DNA from: an uncultured Ferrovum sp.
GTDB taxonomy: Bacteria; Pseudomonadota; Gammaproteobacteria; Burkholderiales; Ferrovaceae
NCBI GenBank assembly: GCA_903863375.1
Contig: CAIPBT010000008.1
Span: forward strand, 1-64,000
Length of the DNA: 64,000 nucleotides
Reading direction: 5' to 3'
Shown here: in pieces, positions 16,313-42,312 of the stretch
How positions within the stretch are numbered: the first letter of the stretch is position 1
Layout: every line of letters starts with the position of its first letter
Made by a program: the position numbers and the translations under genes
The notes under the pieces: generated by a model
Told to the model about the DNA's origin: nothing
Seen by the model: the letters and a program-made list of their open reading frames with translations, nothing else
The model's database searches: none

Positions 16313-17488
16313 TTAGATCCGTCGCGAGGACCTGGCCGCCGCCAACACGGCCAGGCAGGCTGCCGTCAACGCCGCACCCCGTGTTAGCCAGGAAAAGCGC
16401 TCGGCATGGGAGCGGCAGGCATCTTCCTGCAGCCGGGGCAGCGCACCCGCCAGCACGGTCTGTACGGCCTGCGCAAAGCCCGCCGCGTCACCCGCCGCCA
16501 CCAGCAGACCAGACTGCCCGGCGGCCACGGCTTCTGGCACGCCACCAACCGCGTATGCCACCGTCGGGCAACCGGCCGCAGCCGCCTCCAGGGCAACCAT
16601 GCCGAATCCCTCCACATCACCGGGCAGGGCCAGCACCGGAAACACCAGCACATCGGCGCTGGCGTAGGCCAGCTGCAGGGTGTCCTCGTCGACATCGCCC
16701 AGCCAGCGCAGGCATCCGGCCAATCCCGCGGCGGCGGCCGCCGCCGTCACGTCGCCCTGCACCCCCTGATCCGTGGCCTGTGCGGCGTTGACGGCCGCGC
16801 CCCCCACCACCAGCAGGGTCAGGCCCGGATGGTGCTCGAGCAGTCGCGGCAGCACTTCGCGCACGAAGGGTTCCAGCCCCTTGCGTCGGGTGAGACGCCC
16901 GACACTCAGCAGGACCGGACCCTGCAGCTGCCAGGTCTGGCAGAACGCTGCCAGTGCCGCGGTGTTCGGCGCAGCGGGCCGACGCACACCGGGGTGGACC
17001 ACCGTGATCCGGTCCGCCGACACGCCGGCCGCCAGCGCGAGCGACCGGGTGTGCGCACTGTTGGTCACCACATGATCCAGTTGCCGGATGGCGGGCACCC
17101 ACACCCGCTGGTAGACCGGATGGTCGGCGACCACATCCAGACCATGCAGATAGGACATCACAGGCACCCGCAGCAGACGCCCAAGCAGCCAGCCGACCGG
17201 CGCCAGCAGGCCACTGCCACACAGGATCAAGTCCGGTGGCTGTTGCCGCCCGGCACGCCAGGCGTCCCACAGGGTCTGCAGCAGAAACCGCGGTAAGGGG
17301 CGATGCGGACGGGCACTGCAACTGGCACCCGGCGGGGCGTGGGCCGCACATCCAGCCGGGCCAAACAGACTGACCGCAAAGGGTCCGTGCAGCTGCTGCA
17401 CCAGTTCCTGCAACAGCCGCTCCATGCCGCCACGCAGGGGAGGAAAGTTTCGGGTCAACACGAACAGTCGTGGCGGACCAGCCTTCAT
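16313..17488 (-). CDS. GT4-type glycosyltransferase (GT-B fold)
   Basis: LTRNFPPLRGGMERLLQEL...LLSVGRLTRRKGLEPFVREVLPRLLEHHPGLTLLVVGG...EGFGMVALEAAAAGCPTVAYAVGGVPE. Confidence 0.92.
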   Translation of the reverse strand: MKAGPPRLFVLTRNFPPLRGGMERLLQELVQQLHGPFAVSLFGPAGCAAHAPPGASCSARPHRPLPRFLLQTLWDAWRAGRQQPPDLILCGSGLLAPVGWLLGRLLRVPVMSYLHGLDVVADHPVYQRVWVPAIRQLDHVVTNSAHTRSLALAAGVSADRITVVHPGVRRPAAPNTAALAAFCQTWQLQGPVLLSVGRLTRRKGLEPFVREVLPRLLEHHPGLTLLVVGGAAVNAAQATDQGVQGDVTAAAAAAGLAGCLRWLGDVDEDTLQLAYASADVLVFPVLALPGDVEGFGMVALEAAAAGCPTVAYAVGGVPEAVAAGQSGLLVAAGDAAGFAQAVQTVLAGALPRLQEDACRSHAERFSWLTRGAALTAACLAVLAAARSSRRI

Positions 17489-18354
17489 CAGCGGTCGGAA
17501 TCGCGATAGTTGAGCGCCGTAATCTGTTCAGACACCAGCCCGATCAGGAACACCAGCAGGGCGTTGATGAACAACAGGGCCGACATGTTGGTGAAGCGGT
17601 GGGTAGTGACAAAGGTGTAGCCATACCAGCCACAACCCGTCAGAAACAGCAGCAGGCTGATCGGCAAAAAAATCTTCAGCGGCGAATGCAGCGTGCCGAT
17701 CTTGAAGATGATCAGCAGAAAACGCGTACCGTCCCGCCAGATGCGCAGGTGACTGCGGCCGATCCGCGGCGGAGCAACGATCGGTTCGTAGGCCACCGGA
17801 TATCCGGCCCGGAAAAAACTCATCGTGATGGTGGTGGGATAGCTGAAGGTGTTTGGCAGCAGGTACAAAAACCGGCGGAAGCGTTCGGCGCGCACCGCGC
17901 GAAACCCGGAGGTGAGGTCTTCGATCGGGCTTTCCACCATCCAGCTGGCCAGACGGTTGTAGAAGCCGTTGGCCAGGGCGCGATGGGCACCGGCCTGGCC
18001 GGCACGTGCCCGCGTACCGACCACCATGTCGAAGCCCTGCTCCAGCCGGGTGAGCAGACGGCCGACATCGGCGGCGCGATGCTGGCCATCACCATCCATG
18101 AACACCAGGATGGCACCACGCGCGGCGCGAGCACCGGTCTTCACGGCGGCGCCGTTGCCAAGGCTGCGTGGATGGGACAGCACCTCCACACCACATTCCT
18201 CGCACAGCAGGCGCGTGTGATCGGTCGAGCCATCATCCACCACCAGGATCTGGGCTGCCGGCCAGTCGGTACGCAGCTGGGGCAACAGGACACGCAAGCC
18301 TGCTGCTTCGTCGCGGGCCGGGATGATGATGCTCAGGGCAGTCGGTGCGCTCAC
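17488..18354 (-). CDS. Polyprenyl-phosphate glycosyltransferase-like GT2 (DPM1/GtrB-like, C-terminal TM pair)
   Basis: SIIIPARDEAAGLRVLL, VVDDGSTDHT, LGNGAAVKTGARAARGAILVFMDGDGQH, GFRAVRAERFRRFLYLLPNTFSYPTT, two C-terminal TM helices. Confidence 0.88.
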   Translation of the reverse strand: MSAPTALSIIIPARDEAAGLRVLLPQLRTDWPAAQILVVDDGSTDHTRLLCEECGVEVLSHPRSLGNGAAVKTGARAARGAILVFMDGDGQHRAADVGRLLTRLEQGFDMVVGTRARAGQAGAHRALANGFYNRLASWMVESPIEDLTSGFRAVRAERFRRFLYLLPNTFSYPTTITMSFFRAGYPVAYEPIVAPPRIGRSHLRIWRDGTRFLLIIFKIGTLHSPLKIFLPISLLLFLTGCGWYGYTFVTTHRFTNMSALLFINALLVFLIGLVSEQITALNYRDSDR

Positions 18355-20486
18355 GGTGGCAATCCCTTCAATGGTAACGATCCGGCACGTCGGATTTCAG
18401 CGGGCTGGTTGTCCGGATGTTTCTCCTGCGGATCCTGTGCGTGGTGCGGTTCCTGCAAGTGATGCACCTCCTGCAGGCGCTGGGCCAGTTCCCCGCAGGT
18501 ATCCTTCCAGTCGTCGCTGACCGGCACCGCACCGGCACACACGGCCTTTACCAGCGGGCCAGCCTGCACGGCATCGTGGGCGTCGAGCAGCCACGTGGCG
18601 GCCAGCAGGCGCGGCAAGGGCGAGGCGGACGAGGCCTGCTGGGCCGCAGCCAGGGCCGCCAGCGCCTGGGGCAGCTGTTGCTGGGCGTGATGCAGGTGGG
18701 CACGGTAAATGCCGAGCAGGGCCCGGTCGGCCGATTTTTGGACCGGCAGTTGCGACAGTCGGTCGAGCAGATCGCTGGTCCAGGGAATCGGCAAGCCACA
18801 GCGTTGCTCCAGCGCGTCGTTGGCGAGGTGCACGAGCTGCTGCACTTCATACGGACTGAGATAGCGCGGCTGCAGCGTGCTGGCTGGCGCCAGACGGCCA
18901 TCATCGAAACTGGCGCGCGCCAGACAGTCGATGTCGAGCCGCTGCAGGGCCGCCCCCAGGCTGTGCTGGCCAGCCAGAAATCCCTGCGCATCACTGAAAT
19001 GGCCGGCATTGGCATAGCTGTTGGCGAACACGGCCGCCAGCCGCGGCGACGTCGGTTCGGCGGCCAGCAGGGATGGATACAGGCGTTCCGCCGATCCCCA
19101 CAGAAAAGCCCGGTTTGCACAAAGCCCGGCCAGCGCCACCAGCAGGCCGATCAACAGCAGCCGGGATGGGGTCCAGCGCAGCAGCCGGGGGGTGCGCCGA
19201 TTGGCGGCAGACCGGGCAAAGGGCCCGGAGTACAACCACAGTCGGGGCGGCAGCAGGCCCCGCCATGGCAGTGCCGCGCAGAACAGGGTCAAGCCCACCG
19301 ACGGGAAATAGTTGCGATGCTCGAACAGCAACTCAAGCGGCAGTGCGGTGGATTCCAGCAGGTGTCCCACCAGGAACACCAGCAGGCCCAGCGCGGCGAG
19401 CGGCGCGCGCCTGCGCAACGCGAACGCCAGCCAGACCAGCAAGGCCACCAGCAGGATGCCCATCAGCGTGGTCTGCGGATGCAGCCAGTCGAGCGACGGG
19501 CGCAGGCCATCATGGAAAAACCCCAGCAACGAGGGCGCAGGCCAGCACCAGGCCAGCACGTAATAGCCGATGGCCCGCCCTTCGGTGAGCAGGCGCTGCG
19601 CCAGCGTGAAGTCCCGAAAGGCGTAGCCCGGCTGCAGCCACGCCAACAACGGGGCGCGCAGCACGGTGAGCGCCAGCACACCTGGCACCATCAGCACCAG
19701 CGCATAGAAACCAGCCACCAGCCGACGGGTGCGGCCGTCGCCAAAGCCGCGCAACACGGTCAGCTCCAAACAGGCGCACAGCGGCAGCAACAGGATGCCG
19801 TTCTCCTTGCTGAACAGGGCCAGTGGCAGGCACACGAGTCCGGTCACGGCCAGCAGCACCCGGCCGCCCAGAGGACGCTGCTGGGCGAGCAGGCGACGGC
19901 CTTCGGTGTAGGCCAGCAGCCCGAGCAACATGAACAGCGTGCTGAGTTCGGTCATGCGTTGCACGGTGTACAGCACGGTGCTGACCTGCATGGGATGCAG
20001 CAGCCAGACAGCGGTCACGCCCCAGGGTGCCAGCCGGACCGCCCAGCCGTCGCCAGACGGGCCACGCGCGCCGCCGGCGTGCGACACCCGGGCATGCTCC
20101 AGACGGCGCAGGGCGCGCAACCAGGCCAGCAGGATCACGCCGCAGGCCAGATGAAGCAGCAGGTTGTCGAATTTCAGGCCGAACGTCAGGTTGTCGAACA
20201 GGCCGCCGAAGGCCTTGCCACCGTGCAGCCACAGGCTGGCCACAAAGCTCGCCATCGCCACTGGCCGGCCACCCGGGCCGGCCTCACTGTGCAGCAGCGG
20301 CGGCAGGGCATGCCAGTCCGGGCGGCCATGGGAAAACGCCTGCAGCAGAGGCCCCAGTTGCGGATCATCGTCCAGCACCAGTGGCCCGGAAAGACCCGGC
20401 GCAAAACAGGCGAAGGTGAGCAGCAGCAGCACCCAGTTCGGCACCAGGCCATGCCGCAGCCAGGGCAGCAGGGGCAACCGGCGCAT
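18351..20486 (-). CDS. Polytopic GT-C/TMTC-like membrane protein with C-terminal soluble repeat region
   Basis: VLDDDPQLG in first loop; LLHPMQVSTVLYTVQRMTELSTLFMLLGLLAYTEGRR; FSKENGILL; ESTALPLELLFEHRNYFPSVG; paralogue of the next gene. Confidence 0.75.
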   Translation of the reverse strand: MRRLPLLPWLRHGLVPNWVLLLLTFACFAPGLSGPLVLDDDPQLGPLLQAFSHGRPDWHALPPLLHSEAGPGGRPVAMASFVASLWLHGGKAFGGLFDNLTFGLKFDNLLLHLACGVILLAWLRALRRLEHARVSHAGGARGPSGDGWAVRLAPWGVTAVWLLHPMQVSTVLYTVQRMTELSTLFMLLGLLAYTEGRRLLAQQRPLGGRVLLAVTGLVCLPLALFSKENGILLLPLCACLELTVLRGFGDGRTRRLVAGFYALVLMVPGVLALTVLRAPLLAWLQPGYAFRDFTLAQRLLTEGRAIGYYVLAWCWPAPSLLGFFHDGLRPSLDWLHPQTTLMGILLVALLVWLAFALRRRAPLAALGLLVFLVGHLLESTALPLELLFEHRNYFPSVGLTLFCAALPWRGLLPPRLWLYSGPFARSAANRRTPRLLRWTPSRLLLIGLLVALAGLCANRAFLWGSAERLYPSLLAAEPTSPRLAAVFANSYANAGHFSDAQGFLAGQHSLGAALQRLDIDCLARASFDDGRLAPASTLQPRYLSPYEVQQLVHLANDALEQRCGLPIPWTSDLLDRLSQLPVQKSADRALLGIYRAHLHHAQQQLPQALAALAAAQQASSASPLPRLLAATWLLDAHDAVQAGPLVKAVCAGAVPVSDDWKDTCGELAQRLQEVHHLQEPHHAQDPQEKHPDNQPAEIRRAGSLPLKGLPP

Positions 20487-22405
20487 CAGCGCCCGCCTCC
20501 CGCCACGGCCGGCCGCGCCGTCGGCGCAGCGGTCACCGCGCCGCCGCGCGATACCACCTCGCGCAGCACCACTTCGGCATTGCCCAGCATGGCCCATGCC
20601 GCCGGGCTTACCCGGGGATTGGCGTGCAGGGCATCGATGCAGCCGAGCAGGTCTGCGGCAGCAAAATGGCAGCTTCGATCGGCTTGGCAATTCATCAGCG
20701 CTAACACATCCGCCACCATCAGATCGGCCCGCGGGCCAGTGCGCAGGAGTCCCTGCAGTCGCGCGAAGGCATCGGGCGGCGGAACGCAGCCGCCTTCGCT
20801 ACACACCAGAATATAACCGGCCAGGGTTTTTTCCAGGCGCGGATCGATCGCCTGGGCACGGCCGGCCCAGGCGATCGCCAAGGCAAACAGCCGCTGCCGC
20901 TCCGCCGCATCGTGGCTGCTCTCCGCCAGTTCGCCGTACAGCACCGCCAGATCATAAGTTGCATGCACGGACGCCGGATGGTGCAGCACCTCGAGCTGCA
21001 TCATGCCCAGCGGATTGCGCCAGGCGGCCGCGCGGCCGGCCGTGGCAAGGCCGGCGGCCAGGATCAGCGGCAGCAGTACCAGCGCCGCCCAAGGATGCCC
21101 GACCAGCCCCCGGCGCAGCCGGATCAGCGGGGCGGATACCAGCCGAACCGACAGCGGGCGCCCTGGCATCTCGGCGAGCCGGGCCCGCACCACAGCCACC
21201 AGGGCCAGGATCGGCCCCAGCATGCCGAGATACATGCGGTGTTCGTGCATCAGTTCAAGCGGCACCACCGTGCTTTCCAGCATCTGACTGGCCAGCACGA
21301 AGCCCCAGGCCAGGCCCCACCAGGGCGATCGGCGCCGTGCCCACCAGGCGAACACGCTGGTGGCCGCCAGGGCCAGCACCGCCCCTGCCGTACTGGCCGG
21401 TTGCCACCAGCCCTGCGACAGCACCACATCGTCGTGATAGAGCCCAAACGCCGATGGATCGGGCAACACCAGCAGGCGCAGGTACAGCCAGACGATGCGC
21501 GCCTCGGTGAACAGGCGCTGCCCCAGCGTGAACTCGCGGTCGGCAAACCCGGCCACCAGACGCGGCAGCAACCACGGCAGGCTAAGCAGCGCCAGCAGCA
21601 CGGGCAGGTACACCAGCAGCCACATGCCGCGCCGCCACTGCCGGGCGGCCGTTGCGGGCAGGACCTGGGCGCGCAGCACGGTCTGGTCGAGCACCAGCAC
21701 ATAGAGCACCAGCAGGATGCCGCTCTCCTTCGCCGCCAGGGCCAGCGTTCCGCACAAGGGAACGACCGCCCAGGCGAGCCAGGAAACTGCCTGTCCGGCA
21801 CCCAGGCGCTGGCGGATCGTGACGATGCGCCAGAGGGCGAGCAGCATGAACAGGGTGGCGAGGCCGGTCATGCGCTGCACCACATACAGCACGGTGGTGA
21901 GCGTCAGGGGATGGACCGCCCACAGCAGGGCAGCAGCAAAGGCCCAACGTGCGCGTGCGCGGCGGCCGTCGCGGAGAGAAACCGTTGCCACCGGCGGGGT
22001 GACCGACCCGCCCGGCCCCGCGGCCACGTTGTCGGCCAGGGCGAACAGGACATCAGCCAGCCGCCACACTACCCAGGCACTCAGGGCATGGACCAGCAGG
22101 TTGAAGCATTTGAACGGCCAGGGATGCGGGCCGAACCACTGCAGCTGGAGAGCCAGGGTAGTGACGGCCAGTGGGCGGCCGAGCGGACCGGCCCCGGCCC
22201 CGTGCAGCACGGCGGCGAGCGAGCCACGGTGCTCGCTCCAGGCGCGCATCGCGGCGCTGCCGAGCAGATTGGGGTAATCGTCAAACAGGAATGGCCCACC
22301 CAGCCCGGCCCCAAAGGTCAGGAACAGGCAGGCCAGCAACAGCAGGAAGCCGGCCATCCAGAGGGGCTGGCGGGGCGGGCGCTGCGGCGCCGCCAGCGTT
22401 GCCAT
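20486..22405 (-). CDS. Polytopic GT-C/TMTC-like membrane protein (paralogue)
   Basis: FLFDDYPNL; AVHPLTLTTVLYVVQRMTGLATLFMLLALW; AAKESGILL; REFTLGQRLFTEARI; ESTVVPLELMHEHRMYLGMLG. Confidence 0.75.
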   Translation of the reverse strand: MATLAAPQRPPRQPLWMAGFLLLLACLFLTFGAGLGGPFLFDDYPNLLGSAAMRAWSEHRGSLAAVLHGAGAGPLGRPLAVTTLALQLQWFGPHPWPFKCFNLLVHALSAWVVWRLADVLFALADNVAAGPGGSVTPPVATVSLRDGRRARARWAFAAALLWAVHPLTLTTVLYVVQRMTGLATLFMLLALWRIVTIRQRLGAGQAVSWLAWAVVPLCGTLALAAKESGILLVLYVLVLDQTVLRAQVLPATAARQWRRGMWLLVYLPVLLALLSLPWLLPRLVAGFADREFTLGQRLFTEARIVWLYLRLLVLPDPSAFGLYHDDVVLSQGWWQPASTAGAVLALAATSVFAWWARRRSPWWGLAWGFVLASQMLESTVVPLELMHEHRMYLGMLGPILALVAVVRARLAEMPGRPLSVRLVSAPLIRLRRGLVGHPWAALVLLPLILAAGLATAGRAAAWRNPLGMMQLEVLHHPASVHATYDLAVLYGELAESSHDAAERQRLFALAIAWAGRAQAIDPRLEKTLAGYILVCSEGGCVPPPDAFARLQGLLRTGPRADLMVADVLALMNCQADRSCHFAAADLLGCIDALHANPRVSPAAWAMLGNAEVVLREVVSRGGAVTAAPTARPAVAGGGR

Positions 22406-22410
22406 CAAGA

Positions 22411-22474: not shown

Positions 22475-22945
22475 TTAACGGCAGTTGGCCGGCAGGTACT
22501 TGGTCAGCATGGTGTTGCTGGCGTTCTTGCAGGACCAGGCCACCGACGTGGTGGTGCCGGCGCCGGTGAAGATGATCGAGTTGGTCGACGAGGTCATCGC
22601 CGAGCTCAGGTTGCCCGGGTGGTAGAGGATGGTCAGCGTGGCCGCCTTCGCGCCCGTGGTGGCGTAGTCGATTTCGCTGACGTACTTGGCCTGGTCGACC
22701 AGGAACTGGCCGGCGGTGGTGCCGGTGGCGCCGGTACTGGCGGCGGCCGGCATGTGGCCCTGGCTGGCGTAGAAATCGGCGATCTGGGTGCGGATCTGGT
22801 CAGCCGAGGTGATACCTTCACTCACCTTCGCGCGGACCGTGTAGTCCTGGTAGGCCGGGATGGCGATGGCGGCCAGAATGCCGACGATGGCCACGACGAT
22901 CATCAGTTCGATCAGGGTGAAACCCTTTTGCAGTTTGCGTTGCAT
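22475..22945 (-). CDS. pilA: Type IV major pilin (type IVa)
   Basis: [45 protein letters not shown]-terminal Cys pair [17 protein letters not shown]. Confidence 0.95.
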
Positions 22946-23304: not shown

Positions 23305-25890
23305 TTATTTGATGCAGACCGAGCGGATCTGCACCATGTCAGTAATGCCGCCGAGGACTTTTTCAATGCCGTCCTGCTTGAGGGTGCGCATGCCCTCCTC
23401 CACCGCCACCCCAAACAGCACCGCCACGTTGGCGCGCTCCTGGATGCAACGCTTGACGCGCTCGCTGCCAACCATCAGTTCGTGGATGCCGACCCGGCCG
23501 CGATAGCCGGTGCCGGAGCAGCTGTCGCACCCCACCGCCTTGTAGAGCACGATGTTGCCCTCGGCGTTGGCGAAGCGTTGCCGCCATTCCGTCAGCAGAC
23601 CCTTCATGGCACCTTCCGGATCCGCCTTCCAGACCGGCGAGTACATCAGTTCCTTGGCATATTCGTTGGCCAGCCGCTGCAGTTCGGCCTCGTCGGCGAC
23701 GTACGCCTGGCGGCACTCCACGCACACGCGCTTGGCCAGACGCTGGGCCAGGATGCCCAGCACCGCATCGGCAAAATTGAAGGGGTCCATGCCGATATCG
23801 AGCAGACGCACCACGCTTTCCGGGGCGCTGTTGGTGTGCAGCGTGGACATCACCAGGTGGCCGGTCAGCGAGGCTTCGACGCCGGTGGAGGCGGTCTCCT
23901 CGTCGCGCATTTCGCCAACCATGATCACGTCGGGGTCGGCCCGCAGGAAGGCACGCATCGCCGTGGCAAAGGTCAACCCGGCGCGCGGATTCATCTGTAC
24001 CTGGCGCAGGCCCTTCTGGGTGATTTCCACCGGGTCTTCCGCGGTCCAGATCTTGGTTTCGGGCTTGTTGATTTCGGCCAGACAGGCGTGCAGGGTAGTG
24101 GTCTTGCCGGAACCGGTCGGCCCGCAGACCAGGAACAGGCCGTACGGCTTGACGATGATGTCCTGTAGCAGCGCCAGGTTACGCTCGGATAGCGACATCT
24201 TGGCGAGCGGCAGCGGCGTGCCCGAACTCAGGATCCGCATCACCACATCTTCCAGGCCGCCCGCCGACGGAATGGTAGCCACCCGCAATTCGATGTCGAG
24301 CGGGCCGTAGCGGCGGAACTTGATCTTGCCATCCTGCGGCTTGCGCTTCTCGGAGATGTCGAGATCGCACATGATCTTCAGGCGCGTGATGACCGGATTG
24401 CGGTAGGAGGCCGGAATCTCGATGTAATTCTGCAGCGTGCCGTCGCGCCGGAAGCGCACCAGGGTGCGCGCATTGCCAGGATACGGCTCGACGTGGATGT
24501 CGGATGCGCCCATGCGGTGCGCATCGACGATGATCTTGTTGACCAGCTTCACCACCTCGTTTTCCGAGGCGGCGGTGATGTCGTCGGGATTGAACTGGCT
24601 GGCCTCGTCGGCCGGCTCGTCGCTCAGGTTCTGCAGCAGCTCGCCGATCGGGCTGGCTTCCATGCCCCCGGTTTCGCCGAAAAACAGGTCGAGCAGCTGG
24701 CCGAATTCGCGCTGGGTGGTCACCCGGTACACGATCTCGCGCCGCCCGAATACGTTGCGGGCGCTGTGGTTGGAGCGGACACGCTCGGGGTCCCAGGCCA
24801 CCACGGCAATAGACCCACTGGGCATTTCCTCGACCGGCAGCCAGCCGGAACTCTCCAGGAACTCGCGCTTCAGGTTGCGCAGCAGCTCGGGCGGGCGCAT
24901 CCGGTCGGGTCGGAATCCCTCGTAATCAAGGCCATAGTAGCGGGCCAGGGCGGCACCGATCTGCGCTGGCCGCAGCTGGAAGTCTTCGATCAGCACGTCT
25001 TCCAGGTCGCGCTGCTTGCGTCGCGACGTGCGCGTGGCCAATTCCAGTTCGCCGGAGGTCAGCGCGCCGTCGGTGACCAGATGATCGTAGATGCCGGTGA
25101 TCGGTCCACCGGCGCGGGGGCGCAGCGCGTTAGACAGATGGCGGGCAAATTCGGCCATGCTGCCGACCGCCTCATCCGAGAAGACATCGCCCTGGCGGGC
25201 GTTGATCAGCTGGATCACCCCCAGCAGGGTCTCGCTTTGGCCTTCGGTCTGCTGCAACACCGGCATCACCAGCATCTGCCGGGTGCGATAACCGGTGCGG
25301 CGATCCACCTCGCGCAGAAAGGTGAGGCGCGGATTGATCAGTTTCAGCTCGGCGTCGTCGTAGACGTCGCGGAAATTCATGGTGAGGCGGTGGAAGGCGC
25401 AATACCCGGCGATGCTGGTTTCGGTGATCGGCAGCTTCAGGTCGCGAAAGGTGGCAAGCCCGGTCTTGATGCGCGCCACGATCGACGTGCGATCTTCCGT
25501 CACCACATACACCGTGATGCGGTCAGCCCCAAACAGGTCGCAGATTTCCTGGCCAGCGTCGGCAATCGCGTCTTCGGGACTGACCGCAGCCAGGATGCGC
25601 TCGCCGATCTCCTGGATGCGCTGTGAGCGCGATTGCCGGGTGACCGGCAGTGGCTTGACCAACGGCGTTGCCAGATCGGCGGCCATGGTGCGGCGCGCCG
25701 CCGCGGCTGGGTCGGAGGCCGATGGGGAACCAGGGGCCGGAACCGGCGGCGCGTTCAGGCCGCTCGCCGCCTTGGGCGGCACATTGCCGCCGAAACTGGC
25801 TTTACCGCTGGGGGTGCTGTCTGGCGGCACAAGCGACAATTCTCCCGCGCCGGGAATGAATGACTTGGCCTTACCGATGAAATCGACCAT
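23305..25890 (-). CDS. T2SS/T4P-type assembly ATPase with N-terminal GAF and MshEN-like domains
   Basis: GAF-like region (RIQEIGERILAAVSPEDAIADAGQEICDLFGADRITVYVV); MshEN-like region; Walker A CGPTGSGKTTTLHACL; MVGEMRDEETA; Cys motif CVEC...CDSC. Confidence 0.9.
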   Translation of the reverse strand: MVDFIGKAKSFIPGAGELSLVPPDSTPSGKASFGGNVPPKAASGLNAPPVPAPGSPSASDPAAAARRTMAADLATPLVKPLPVTRQSRSQRIQEIGERILAAVSPEDAIADAGQEICDLFGADRITVYVVTEDRTSIVARIKTGLATFRDLKLPITETSIAGYCAFHRLTMNFRDVYDDAELKLINPRLTFLREVDRRTGYRTRQMLVMPVLQQTEGQSETLLGVIQLINARQGDVFSDEAVGSMAEFARHLSNALRPRAGGPITGIYDHLVTDGALTSGELELATRTSRRKQRDLEDVLIEDFQLRPAQIGAALARYYGLDYEGFRPDRMRPPELLRNLKREFLESSGWLPVEEMPSGSIAVVAWDPERVRSNHSARNVFGRREIVYRVTTQREFGQLLDLFFGETGGMEASPIGELLQNLSDEPADEASQFNPDDITAASENEVVKLVNKIIVDAHRMGASDIHVEPYPGNARTLVRFRRDGTLQNYIEIPASYRNPVITRLKIMCDLDISEKRKPQDGKIKFRRYGPLDIELRVATIPSAGGLEDVVMRILSSGTPLPLAKMSLSERNLALLQDIIVKPYGLFLVCGPTGSGKTTTLHACLAEINKPETKIWTAEDPVEITQKGLRQVQMNPRAGLTFATAMRAFLRADPDVIMVGEMRDEETASTGVEASLTGHLVMSTLHTNSAPESVVRLLDIGMDPFNFADAVLGILAQRLAKRVCVECRQAYVADEAELQRLANEYAKELMYSPVWKADPEGAMKGLLTEWRQRFANAEGNIVLYKAVGCDSCSGTGYRGRVGIHELMVGSERVKRCIQERANVAVLFGVAVEEGMRTLKQDGIEKVLGGITDMVQIRSVCIK

Positions 25891-26086
25891 TGCTTCCTCT
25901 CGAGCGCCCTGCCGGTTCGCGCCCGCTCTTGTGATCCTGATTGACGACCGCCCGCCCCCCCCTGAAACGAGAACCGCTGAATTCTGCCGGACGCAAGCCT
26001 GCCAGTGTGGCGGGGGAATCCTGCGATCGCAAGTCCCGCCACCGTCCTTTTACGGCGAAGCCGGACGAGGATTGAGTCGCCCGAGG

Positions 26087-27241
26087 TCAGTGCTCGAAGA
26101 AAAACTCGAGCTTGATGCCGGCGATTTCCAGCAGGTCGTGGGCAGCCAGGGCCACCGCATGGGCTGGCAGGGGCTGTCCGCGCAGCAGCAGCGGGGTTGC
26201 GCCCTCCACCTGGGCCAGGTGGTAGCCGTCGCCGCGCCGGCTGATCACGGCAACCTGAACGCCAGGTCGGCCAATGGTGGTGAGCGGTTTGCTGATTTCC
26301 AGCACACGGCCTGCCGCCGGACCGTTCAGCACCATCAGCCGGGCCGTTCCGGCATCGCTGGCGGTCGCCATGCCGGGCTGCAGCGCCGGGCTGGCCGATA
26401 GTGGGGCTGGCGGAACCGGGGCTGGCGGAACTGGCGCATGATCAGGCGCCGATAGGGTCTGTCGGGCTGGCGCGACCAGCGGTGCGGTGGCCGCGGATGA
26501 GGGCGTGCTTGGCGCAGGATGGAGGGTTGGCGCAGGCTGCAGGCTTGTTGCCGGCTGCAAGCTGACTGCTGGCTGGGGCCAGCCGCCGGCGGTGGGCAGC
26601 ACAATCGGTGCCTTGTCCGGAAAATGCGACTGCAGCGCCTGCTGGGATTCGAGCAGGGCCGCCAGGGCGCCGCTGGTTTCGTCCGCTGCGGCGCCTGGCC
26701 GGGGCACAGCCGCCGCCATGACCGGCTGGGCGATCGGCACCGAAGGGCCTGGGTACAGCGCAGCCGGCTGCGGCGCAACCGGGCGCGTCACGGCGGGCGC
26801 GACCGACGGTGCCGACGCAGGCAGGCCGCCGGGGCCCGGCCGGTCGGCGAGCGTGGTCGAGTGGACTCCGGCCGGAGCAGAAGGTCTGACCCCACTGATC
26901 GGGCGGTTCAGCACCATGGTTTTTTCGAAGTCGGCTGCCTCACGCGGTGCGACCTGGTCGCCGATGAAGCGCAGGCGGTGGCGGCCGATTTCGATCAGGT
27001 CACCGTTGCGCAGGAAATGCTTGCGCACCGCCGAGCCATTGACCAGGGTGCCGTTGGTGCTGCCGAGATCCTCGAGGAAGGAGTCGTTCAGGATGGTGCC
27101 CACCACAGCGTGCTGGCCACTAACGGCGATGTGGTCCAGCTGGATGTCATTGTCTGCCCGCCGGCCGATCGTGATGCGCTCCTTGGCGATCTCGATTTCA
27201 CCGACCTGGGCACCATCCAGGGTAATCAGCAGTTTCGCCAT
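26087..27241 (-). CDS. FHA-domain protein (N-terminal FHA, Pro/Ala linker, C-terminal FHA-like domain)
   Basis: ITIGRRADNDIQLDHIAVSGQHAVV...DLGSTNGTLVNG; C-terminal ...KPLTTIGRPGVQVAVISRRGDGYHLAQVEG. Confidence 0.88.
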   Translation of the reverse strand: MAKLLITLDGAQVGEIEIAKERITIGRRADNDIQLDHIAVSGQHAVVGTILNDSFLEDLGSTNGTLVNGSAVRKHFLRNGDLIEIGRHRLRFIGDQVAPREAADFEKTMVLNRPISGVRPSAPAGVHSTTLADRPGPGGLPASAPSVAPAVTRPVAPQPAALYPGPSVPIAQPVMAAAVPRPGAAADETSGALAALLESQQALQSHFPDKAPIVLPTAGGWPQPAVSLQPATSLQPAPTLHPAPSTPSSAATAPLVAPARQTLSAPDHAPVPPAPVPPAPLSASPALQPGMATASDAGTARLMVLNGPAAGRVLEISKPLTTIGRPGVQVAVISRRGDGYHLAQVEGATPLLLRGQPLPAHAVALAAHDLLEIAGIKLEFFFEH

Positions 27242-27244
27242 GGA

Positions 27245-28051
27245 TCAGGCCGCCTTGCGCAAGAATTCGTACAGTCGCGACCACCAGGATTCCTGGCCGC
27301 GGACGCGCGCGAGGATCACGGCGATGTTGTCGCGCCCGCCACAGTCATTGGCAGCCTGCACCAGCTGCCGGACGGCCAGTGGCAGATTGTCCTGCAGCGG
27401 CGTCAAGGTTTCGGCGATCACGGCATCGTCGAGCATGTCGGTCAGACCATCCGAGCACAACATGAACACATCGCCTGGGCGAACATCAAAGATCTGGATC
27501 TCGGTATCCACATCTTGCTCCACCCCAAGGGCCCGCGTCACCACATTGCGATTGTGCGAGTGGCGGGCCTGTTCGCGGGTCATGAAGCCATTGCGCACCT
27601 GCTCTTCCAGCAGGGAATGATCGCGGGTCAGGGCCACCAGTTCGCCCCGGCGCAGACGATAGACGCGCGAATCGCCAACGTGTCCAACCACCACGGTGCG
27701 GCCATGAAACACCGTCAGCGCGAGGGTTGCACCCATGCCGGCGCAGCGCGGATCAGTGCGCGAGCGCCCCAGGATGGCAGCATTGGCAGCGTGCACCTGC
27801 TCGTCGATCCAGCGGCTTAGCATGGCGGTAGACACCGGCTTGGCCGACGCAGGGCGGCTGCAACGGGCGTGCAGCCCCTCGGCAACCAGTTCGGTGGCGA
27901 GGGCGCTGGCCACCTCGCCGGCCTGATATCCGCCCATGCCATCGGCCAGCACCAGCACGCCGGAATCCACGCGGTGGCTGATGCTGTCCTCGTTGTGCTG
28001 GCGGACCTTGCCGGCATCCGTCAGGCTGGCGATGTCGAGCGTGTAATGCAT
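27245..28051 (-). CDS. PP2C-type Ser/Thr protein phosphatase
   Basis: ASLTDAGKVRQHNEDSI, LVLADGMGGYQAGEVAS, HVGDSRVYRLR, MLCSDGLTDMLDD, GGRDNIAVI. Confidence 0.93.
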   Translation of the reverse strand: MHYTLDIASLTDAGKVRQHNEDSISHRVDSGVLVLADGMGGYQAGEVASALATELVAEGLHARCSRPASAKPVSTAMLSRWIDEQVHAANAAILGRSRTDPRCAGMGATLALTVFHGRTVVVGHVGDSRVYRLRRGELVALTRDHSLLEEQVRNGFMTREQARHSHNRNVVTRALGVEQDVDTEIQIFDVRPGDVFMLCSDGLTDMLDDAVIAETLTPLQDNLPLAVRQLVQAANDCGGRDNIAVILARVRGQESWWSRLYEFLRKAA

Positions 28052-42045: not shown

Positions 42046-42121
42046 TGGTGGGTCGTGACAGATTCGAACTGTCGACCTACGGATTAAGAGTCCGCTGCTC
42101 TACCAGCTGAGCTAACGACCC
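42046..42121 (-). tRNA. tRNA-Lys (CTT anticodon)
   Basis: Reverse complement GGGTCGTTAGCTCAGCTGGTAGAGCAGCGGACTCTTAATCCGTAGGTCGACAGTTCGAATCTGTCACGACCCACCA. Confidence 0.96.
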
Positions 42122-42236
42122 TCCGGGCATGACGTATGGCTGACAGTGCTGTTGCCAGCCGGATCTTCACCCGCTGATCAAATCCCGGCGTGGGCCAACG
42201 CACCCTGCAACGGCATCAACGAGGAATCACCAAAAC

Positions 42237-42312
42237 TGGTGGGTCGGGCGGGACTCGAACCCGCGACCAACGGATTAAAAGTCCGCTGCTCTACCGACTG
42301 AGCTACCGACCC
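42237..42312 (-). tRNA. tRNA-Lys (TTT anticodon)
   Basis: Reverse complement GGGTCGGTAGCTCAGTCGGTAGAGCAGCGGACTTTTAATCCGTTGGTCGCGGGTTCGAGTCCCGCCCGACCCACCA. Confidence 0.96.

Follow-up and report, generated by a model that had tools for sequence, protein, structure and literature searches.

A PilB-like ATPase with a GAF domain that probably displaced canonical PilB as the type IV pilus extension motor in many betaproteobacteria, with proposed control by cyclic nucleotides and phosphothreonine

Second messengers influence type IV pili in different ways, with cAMP affecting pili via transcription and c-di-GMP affecting some motors via their MshEN domain. In Pseudomonas aeruginosa, the cAMP of the Pil-Chp/CyaB/Vfr pathway acts on transcription through Vfr (PMC11656802). 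The locus described here is predicted to share the cAMP control of type IV pili with that pathway, but with the motor as the direct target of the cyclic nucleotide. MshE and c-di-GMP-binding PilB proteins are extension motors with an N-terminal regulatory layer for a second messenger, a design that we also predict for our ATPase; they bind c-di-GMP via MshEN, whereas the sensor in the protein studied here is a separate GAF domain. That domain shares sequence class, fold and contact residues with the GAF domains of CyaB2 and of PDE2, PDE5, PDE6 and PDE10, which control a cyclase or a phosphodiesterase, while here the GAF sits on a putative pilus motor. Canonical PilB has the same MshEN and T2SSE core and the same tetracysteine motif, and our protein (the GAF-ATPase) would work in the same pilus machine, with PilC as its proposed partner; it differs from PilB by the extra GAF domain and by a core that is about 31 aa longer (425 versus 394). 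Acinetobacter baylyi TfpB, a second extension ATPase, works beside PilB (PMC11656802). Like TfpB, the GAF-ATPase is predicted to be a phylogenetically distinct extension motor for one pilus, but PilB is absent from many genomes that carry it. In the open-licence PMC literature, searches for PilB together with GAF, CHASE2 or FHA turned up no account of this protein.

The window, that is, the whole 64,000-nucleotide stretch of DNA that was analyzed, is part of contig C8 of a 3.25-Mb assembly (G000; 226 contigs, 97% complete), whose closest matches are betaproteobacteria. The initial annotation had described three successive minus-strand genes for a PP2C phosphatase, a dual-FHA protein and an ATPase with GAF, MshEN and Walker/tetracysteine motifs, and gene calls and Pfam place all three as described (Table 1). 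In the T2SSE core of the ATPase, Walker A (GPTGSGKT) and two CxxC pairs are conserved across 46 orthologues. Pfam and alignment also bear out the uneven pair of FHA modules: an intact N-terminal FHA is followed by a DFEKTM motif containing T108, a Pro/Ala-rich linker and a C-terminal FHA-like module that is degenerate yet itself conserved in 82 orthologues. The PP2C protein scores above the curated Stp1/IreP cut-off (NF033484; 238.2 versus 230 bits). What the annotation overlooked is the type IV pilin gene 359 nt downstream of the ATPase, a place that it also occupies in two congeners and several more distant loci. As a whole, that first reading is supported where it predicted small-ligand control of a pilus-type motor, now narrowed to a GAF of the cyclic-nucleotide class; the evidence speaks against the separate main pilB for which it left room.

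Table 1. Features of the window discussed in the text
Feature	Position in window	Strand	Basis
Family 2 glycosyltransferase	17488..18354	-	Pfam Glycos_transf_2; same neighbours in relatives
Multi-TM TMTC-like protein, 640 aa	20486..22408	-	Homologues after pilin, before GT2 in L023, L048, L064
Type IV pilin, 156 aa, prepilin N-terminus	22475..22945	-	Pfam Pilin and N_methyl
PilB-like ATPase with N-terminal GAF, 861 aa	23305..25890	-	Pfam
ATPase domains: GAF aa 105-256, MshEN aa 329-408, T2SSE aa 441-855			Pfam
GAF domain of ATPase, aa 86-262, cyclic-nucleotide class	25105..25635	-	PDB sequence searches, AF2 model, Foldseek, conservation
FHA protein, 384 aa	26087..27241	-	Pfam; alignment of 82 orthologues
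PP2C-type Ser/Thr phosphatase, 268 aa, with intact metal-site motifs	27245..28051	-	Pfam PP2C_2; alignment of 79 orthologues

The NCBIfam model that fits the ATPase best is that of PilB (TIGR02538), at 470.7 of the 675.65 bits of its cut-off, whereas the canonical PilB of a relative reaches 862.7 bits. An identity with TfpB (NF053534) was rejected at 373.9 of 850 bits. The core trait of PilB, a T2SSE domain with Walker A and two CxxC pairs, is present, and among solved structures PilB and PilF match the core first. In the tree, the GAF-ATPase clade groups with canonical PilB and not with the bacterium's own GspE, a weaker point given the long branches. While PilB sits in a corC-pilB-pilC-pilD cluster, the GAF-ATPase belongs to a signalling operon, and its gene does not adjoin pilC: in the window's genome, pilC-pilD lies on C223 without an ATPase, and among relatives the only exception is a chimera in genome G067. 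Because of this location and the score below the cut-off, we place the protein outside the PilB equivalog family.

No canonical pilB above the TIGR02538 cut-off is present in the window's genome. Five T2SSF platforms (PilC on C223 and those on C34, C2, C157 and C4) stand against five assembly-type ATPases (on C34, C2, C157 and C4 and in the window), and four ATPase-platform pairs are adjacent, including that of a GspE above its cut-off on C34. PilC is thus the sole unpaired platform and the window's ATPase the sole unpaired ATPase, and together with the absence of any above-cut-off copy this speaks against a separate main pilB; the idea of an extra motor beside a main PilB was rejected because of that absence. 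As the initial annotation had stated, the window offers no partner genes of the pilC or pilM type, and the entire contig lacks a T2SSF or PilM match. A search for PilM, PilO, PilP and the PilQ secretin found all four encoded together on C85, pilD adjoins pilC, and C76 carries two PilT-type ATPases. The window's ATPase is very probably the extension motor of this bacterium.

The same substitution recurs among relatives. We mapped GAF-ATPase, canonical PilB (above the TIGR02538 cut-off) and PilC in 100 genomes, including drafts, many of them fragmented. Sixty-three are pilC positive; 24 of these carry only PilB, 21 only the GAF-ATPase, 15 both and 3 neither. The GAF-ATPase is found in 36 of the 63 pilC-positive genomes versus none of the 37 without pilC, and in 21 of the 24 pilC-positive genomes that lack canonical PilB (Fisher P = 1.8e-4, or 4.8e-4 when collapsed by family, both ignoring phylogeny). 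Two of the three genomes with neither motor (G032 and G081) have a below-cut-off ATPase directly beside pilC. In the third (G078; L194), corC-pilC-pilD has lost pilB and there is no GAF-ATPase, so that another ATPase can apparently serve, with candidates at L263-L265. Within the window's own genus, three species have only the GAF-ATPase, G003 has only PilB, and a further species lacks both motors as well as PilC.

The pilB slot itself documents the loss. The usual gene order is ffh followed by corC-pilB-pilC-pilD (L183-L185), and corC-pilC-pilD without pilB occurs in the window's genome and in G001, G002, G047, G055, G051, G054, G043 and G089; where the corC-pilC gap was checked by tblastn, no trace of pilB was found in it. 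Two genomes that carry the GAF-ATPase still contain decayed pilB: in G095 the gene has suffered an internal deletion as well as a frameshift, and in G033 about the last 150 codons are all that is left. In G067, the slot is filled by a chimera (L187:3171-5096, minus strand). Its N-domain shares 58% identity with a canonical PilB; its core shares 79% with the GAF-ATPase of the same genome and falls inside the GAF-ATPase clade in the tree. Displacement of canonical PilB by the GAF-ATPase is well supported by genomics.

The ATPase has orthologues in a wide range of betaproteobacteria (588 loci confirmed, 80 of them kept), including species of Nitrosomonas, Azospira, Noviherbaspirillum and Massilia, and the commonest operon reads CHASE2-Ser/Thr kinase, PP2C, FHA protein, CHASE2-class III cyclase, MBL-fold protein, GAF-ATPase and GAF-HD-GYP protein. 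Counted over the 82 loci with enough flanking sequence, the ATPase is accompanied by the MBL-fold gene in 73, PP2C in 67, FHA in 67, GAF-HD-GYP in 62, the CHASE2-cyclase in 57 and the CHASE2-kinase in 54. The MBL-fold protein resembles class II cAMP phosphodiesterase and carries the HxHxDH motif, and the HD protein has the HD-GYP signature, HHExxDGxGY(P), and a GAF domain whose first matches are the GAFs of PDE5 and CyaB2. In adenylate cyclases, the lysine of the KYxGD motif specifies adenine; of the 78 operon cyclase sequences, at least 42 have this motif. Some relatives' loci continue after the operon with a pilin, a TMTC-like and a GT2 gene. Two relatives show variations on these themes. 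In Nitrosomonas europaea, the position downstream of the GAF-ATPase that GAF-HD-GYP occupies in other loci is taken by a GGDEF protein (L076:12613-13431, plus strand). Near another GAF-ATPase is a second sensor-motor fusion of 806 aa (L034:16154-18574, plus strand), consisting of a response-regulator receiver, MshEN and T2SSE.

In the window and two congeners, the locus is reduced to PP2C-FHA-ATPase-pilin (the contig of G001 stops after the pilin). Since the PP2C-FHA-ATPase arrangement is kept in these congeners and both partners accompany the ATPase in most of the related loci, we do not regard it as due to chance. No CHASE2 domain is found in the window's genome, so there is no relocated CHASE2 kinase or cyclase, and no MBL or GAF-HD-GYP orthologue was detected there with single-protein queries from another genus, which diverged copies could escape. 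The sole class III cyclase of this genome is a REC-cyclase on C126 (L140:8343-9605, plus strand), with Asn at the position of the adenine-specifying Lys.

By sequence and modelled fold, the GAF of the ATPase belongs to the cyclic-nucleotide class. Its profile finds CyaB2, a cAMP-binding protein, best in the PDB (2.2e-38), followed by the GAFs of PDE5, the GAF-HD-GYP protein 4MCW, PDE10, PDE2 and PDE6; sensor-kinase GAFs appear only from 1.4e-7 on. A Foldseek search with the AF2 model of the GAF (pLDDT 92.5) returned the same set; the full-length AlphaFold model, whose ATPase core is poorly predicted (mean pLDDT 69.6), was left out of the evidence. The residues of CyaB2 that contact cAMP are listed in PMC4411481. 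By alignment, they correspond to R124, T126, I141, D196 and T199 of the ATPase; the first four are identical to those of CyaB2, and T199 replaces N359. R124, T126, D196 and T199 are invariant in all 114 sequences (the window, both congeners and 111 other orthologues), and position 141 is I, V or L. The NKFDE motif is retained only in part: N230 and F237 are invariant, and K, D and E do not stay in register. The contact Arg, Thr/Ser and Asp are also kept in homologues of about 40 to 44% identity that belong to other families within the class and phylum, several of which likewise adjoin GAF-HD and CHASE2-cyclase genes.

Ligand binding by this GAF is a prediction, and in relatives cAMP is the favoured candidate because of the GAF matches, the contact residues, the KYxGD cyclase, the MBL and HD proteins and the GAF of the GAF-HD protein. 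The case is weaker for the window's genome because its only class III cyclase has Asn in place of the adenine-specifying Lys. The c-di-GMP motif model NF053729 does match the ATPase on C157 of the same genome; it has no match in the window's ATPase, and c-di-GMP binding by the MshEN domain of the latter is therefore unsupported by this model.

Control of the motor by threonine phosphorylation is plausible given the intact FHA and PP2C, the conserved motif of the FHA protein and the CHASE2 kinase beside most relatives' genes. FHA residues G26, R27, S41, H44 and N63 are invariant in 82 orthologues, T108 of the DFEKTM motif is conserved at 0.98 in the same set, and the PP2C motif residues are conserved in 79 orthologues. 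The cognate kinase is missing from the locus: the initial annotation saw no Ser/Thr kinase in the window, and indeed the whole contig has no Pkinase match. The genome search that it called for revealed four such matches elsewhere, none of them with CHASE2; the one nearest to the catalytic domain of the operon kinase lies on C34 (38% over 268 aa). Another of the four is a PP2C-kinase fusion on C149 (L145:7318-9003, minus strand). Phospho-control of the ATPase, like the target of the FHA protein, is a matter of inference.

Considering these data, we propose, with a probability of about 0.7, that the GAF-ATPase is a PilB-displacing extension motor of type IVa pili under cyclic-nucleotide and phosphothreonine control. 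In this model, a PilB-like lineage with a GAF at its N terminus would have displaced canonical PilB in many betaproteobacteria, and its members would act as PilB-type hexamers on PilC. Nucleotide occupancy of the GAF domains would control the motor, in one direction or the other, via the MshEN layer. In relatives, a CHASE2 cyclase of the adenylate type would make the ligand, the phosphodiesterase-like MBL-fold protein would remove it, the GAF-HD-GYP protein would tie c-di-GMP breakdown to that ligand, and the CHASE2 kinase/PP2C/FHA set would add phosphothreonine control. In the window's genus, because the locus is so reduced, the ligand and the kinase, if any, would have to come from elsewhere in the genome.

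A less probable reading is that the ATPase extends the pilus but that, in this lineage, its GAF has become a structural relic or has a different ligand. Regulation would then come from phospho-signalling alone (FHA/PP2C with an unlinked kinase), or there would be none. The locus has lost its cyclase, MBL and HD-GYP genes, which the searches described above did not find elsewhere in the genome, and the genome's own REC-cyclase is atypical. Compared with the rest, the window's genus also has the more divergent GAF (46% versus 63% among the others); the corresponding values for the ATPase core are 68% and 76%. However, all contact residues are kept in all three congeners despite the divergence of the remaining GAF.

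The genome contains several further GspE/MshE-type ATPases, and G078 illustrates that pilB can be lost where no GAF-ATPase is present, which could mean that the window's ATPase serves another machine, T2SS-like or an accessory pilus, and that a paralogue such as an MshE-like ATPase extends the pilus. We judge this improbable, as each of the other assembly ATPases adjoins a T2SSF platform, and the strict co-occurrence with pilC, the pilB remnants, the G067 chimera and the neighbouring pilin all point to type IVa pili. That the absence of pilB is an artefact of draft genomes is more improbable still, to the point of being negligible: many genomes are indeed fragmented, that of the window into its 226 contigs, but the corC-pilC junctions are complete within their contigs and show no trace of pilB, and G046 (a single contig) and G051 (three contigs) are both 100% complete.

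The preferred reading, a PilB-displacing motor gated by nucleotide and phosphothreonine signals, points to a small signalling molecule as a direct switch of pilus building. If it is right, the cyclic-mononucleotide sensor fused to the motor represents a third, direct route of pilus control. We would give even odds to the broader proposal that a cAMP/cGMP-gated motor with a fused GAF repeatedly displaced PilB in betaproteobacteria, along with an operon for making, degrading and sensing the nucleotide that is coupled to c-di-GMP turnover and Ser/Thr phosphorylation. A practical consequence is that genome surveys which rely on canonical pilB as their marker would misassign the extension motor of many betaproteobacteria. 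The G067 chimera and the remnants of pilB can be viewed as an experiment of nature in motor replacement.

The genes beyond the pilin also merit mention. The 640-aa TMTC-like protein, which has no Pfam match, and the family 2 glycosyltransferase are probably tied to pilin modification. In total, two multi-TM TMTC-like proteins lacking Pfam and NCBIfam matches occupy 18351-22408 (minus strand), between the pilin and glycosyltransferases, and possibly take part in pilin glycosylation. Elsewhere in the window (42046-42312, minus strand), a tRNA-Lys (CTT) gene adjoins one for tRNA-Lys (TTT).
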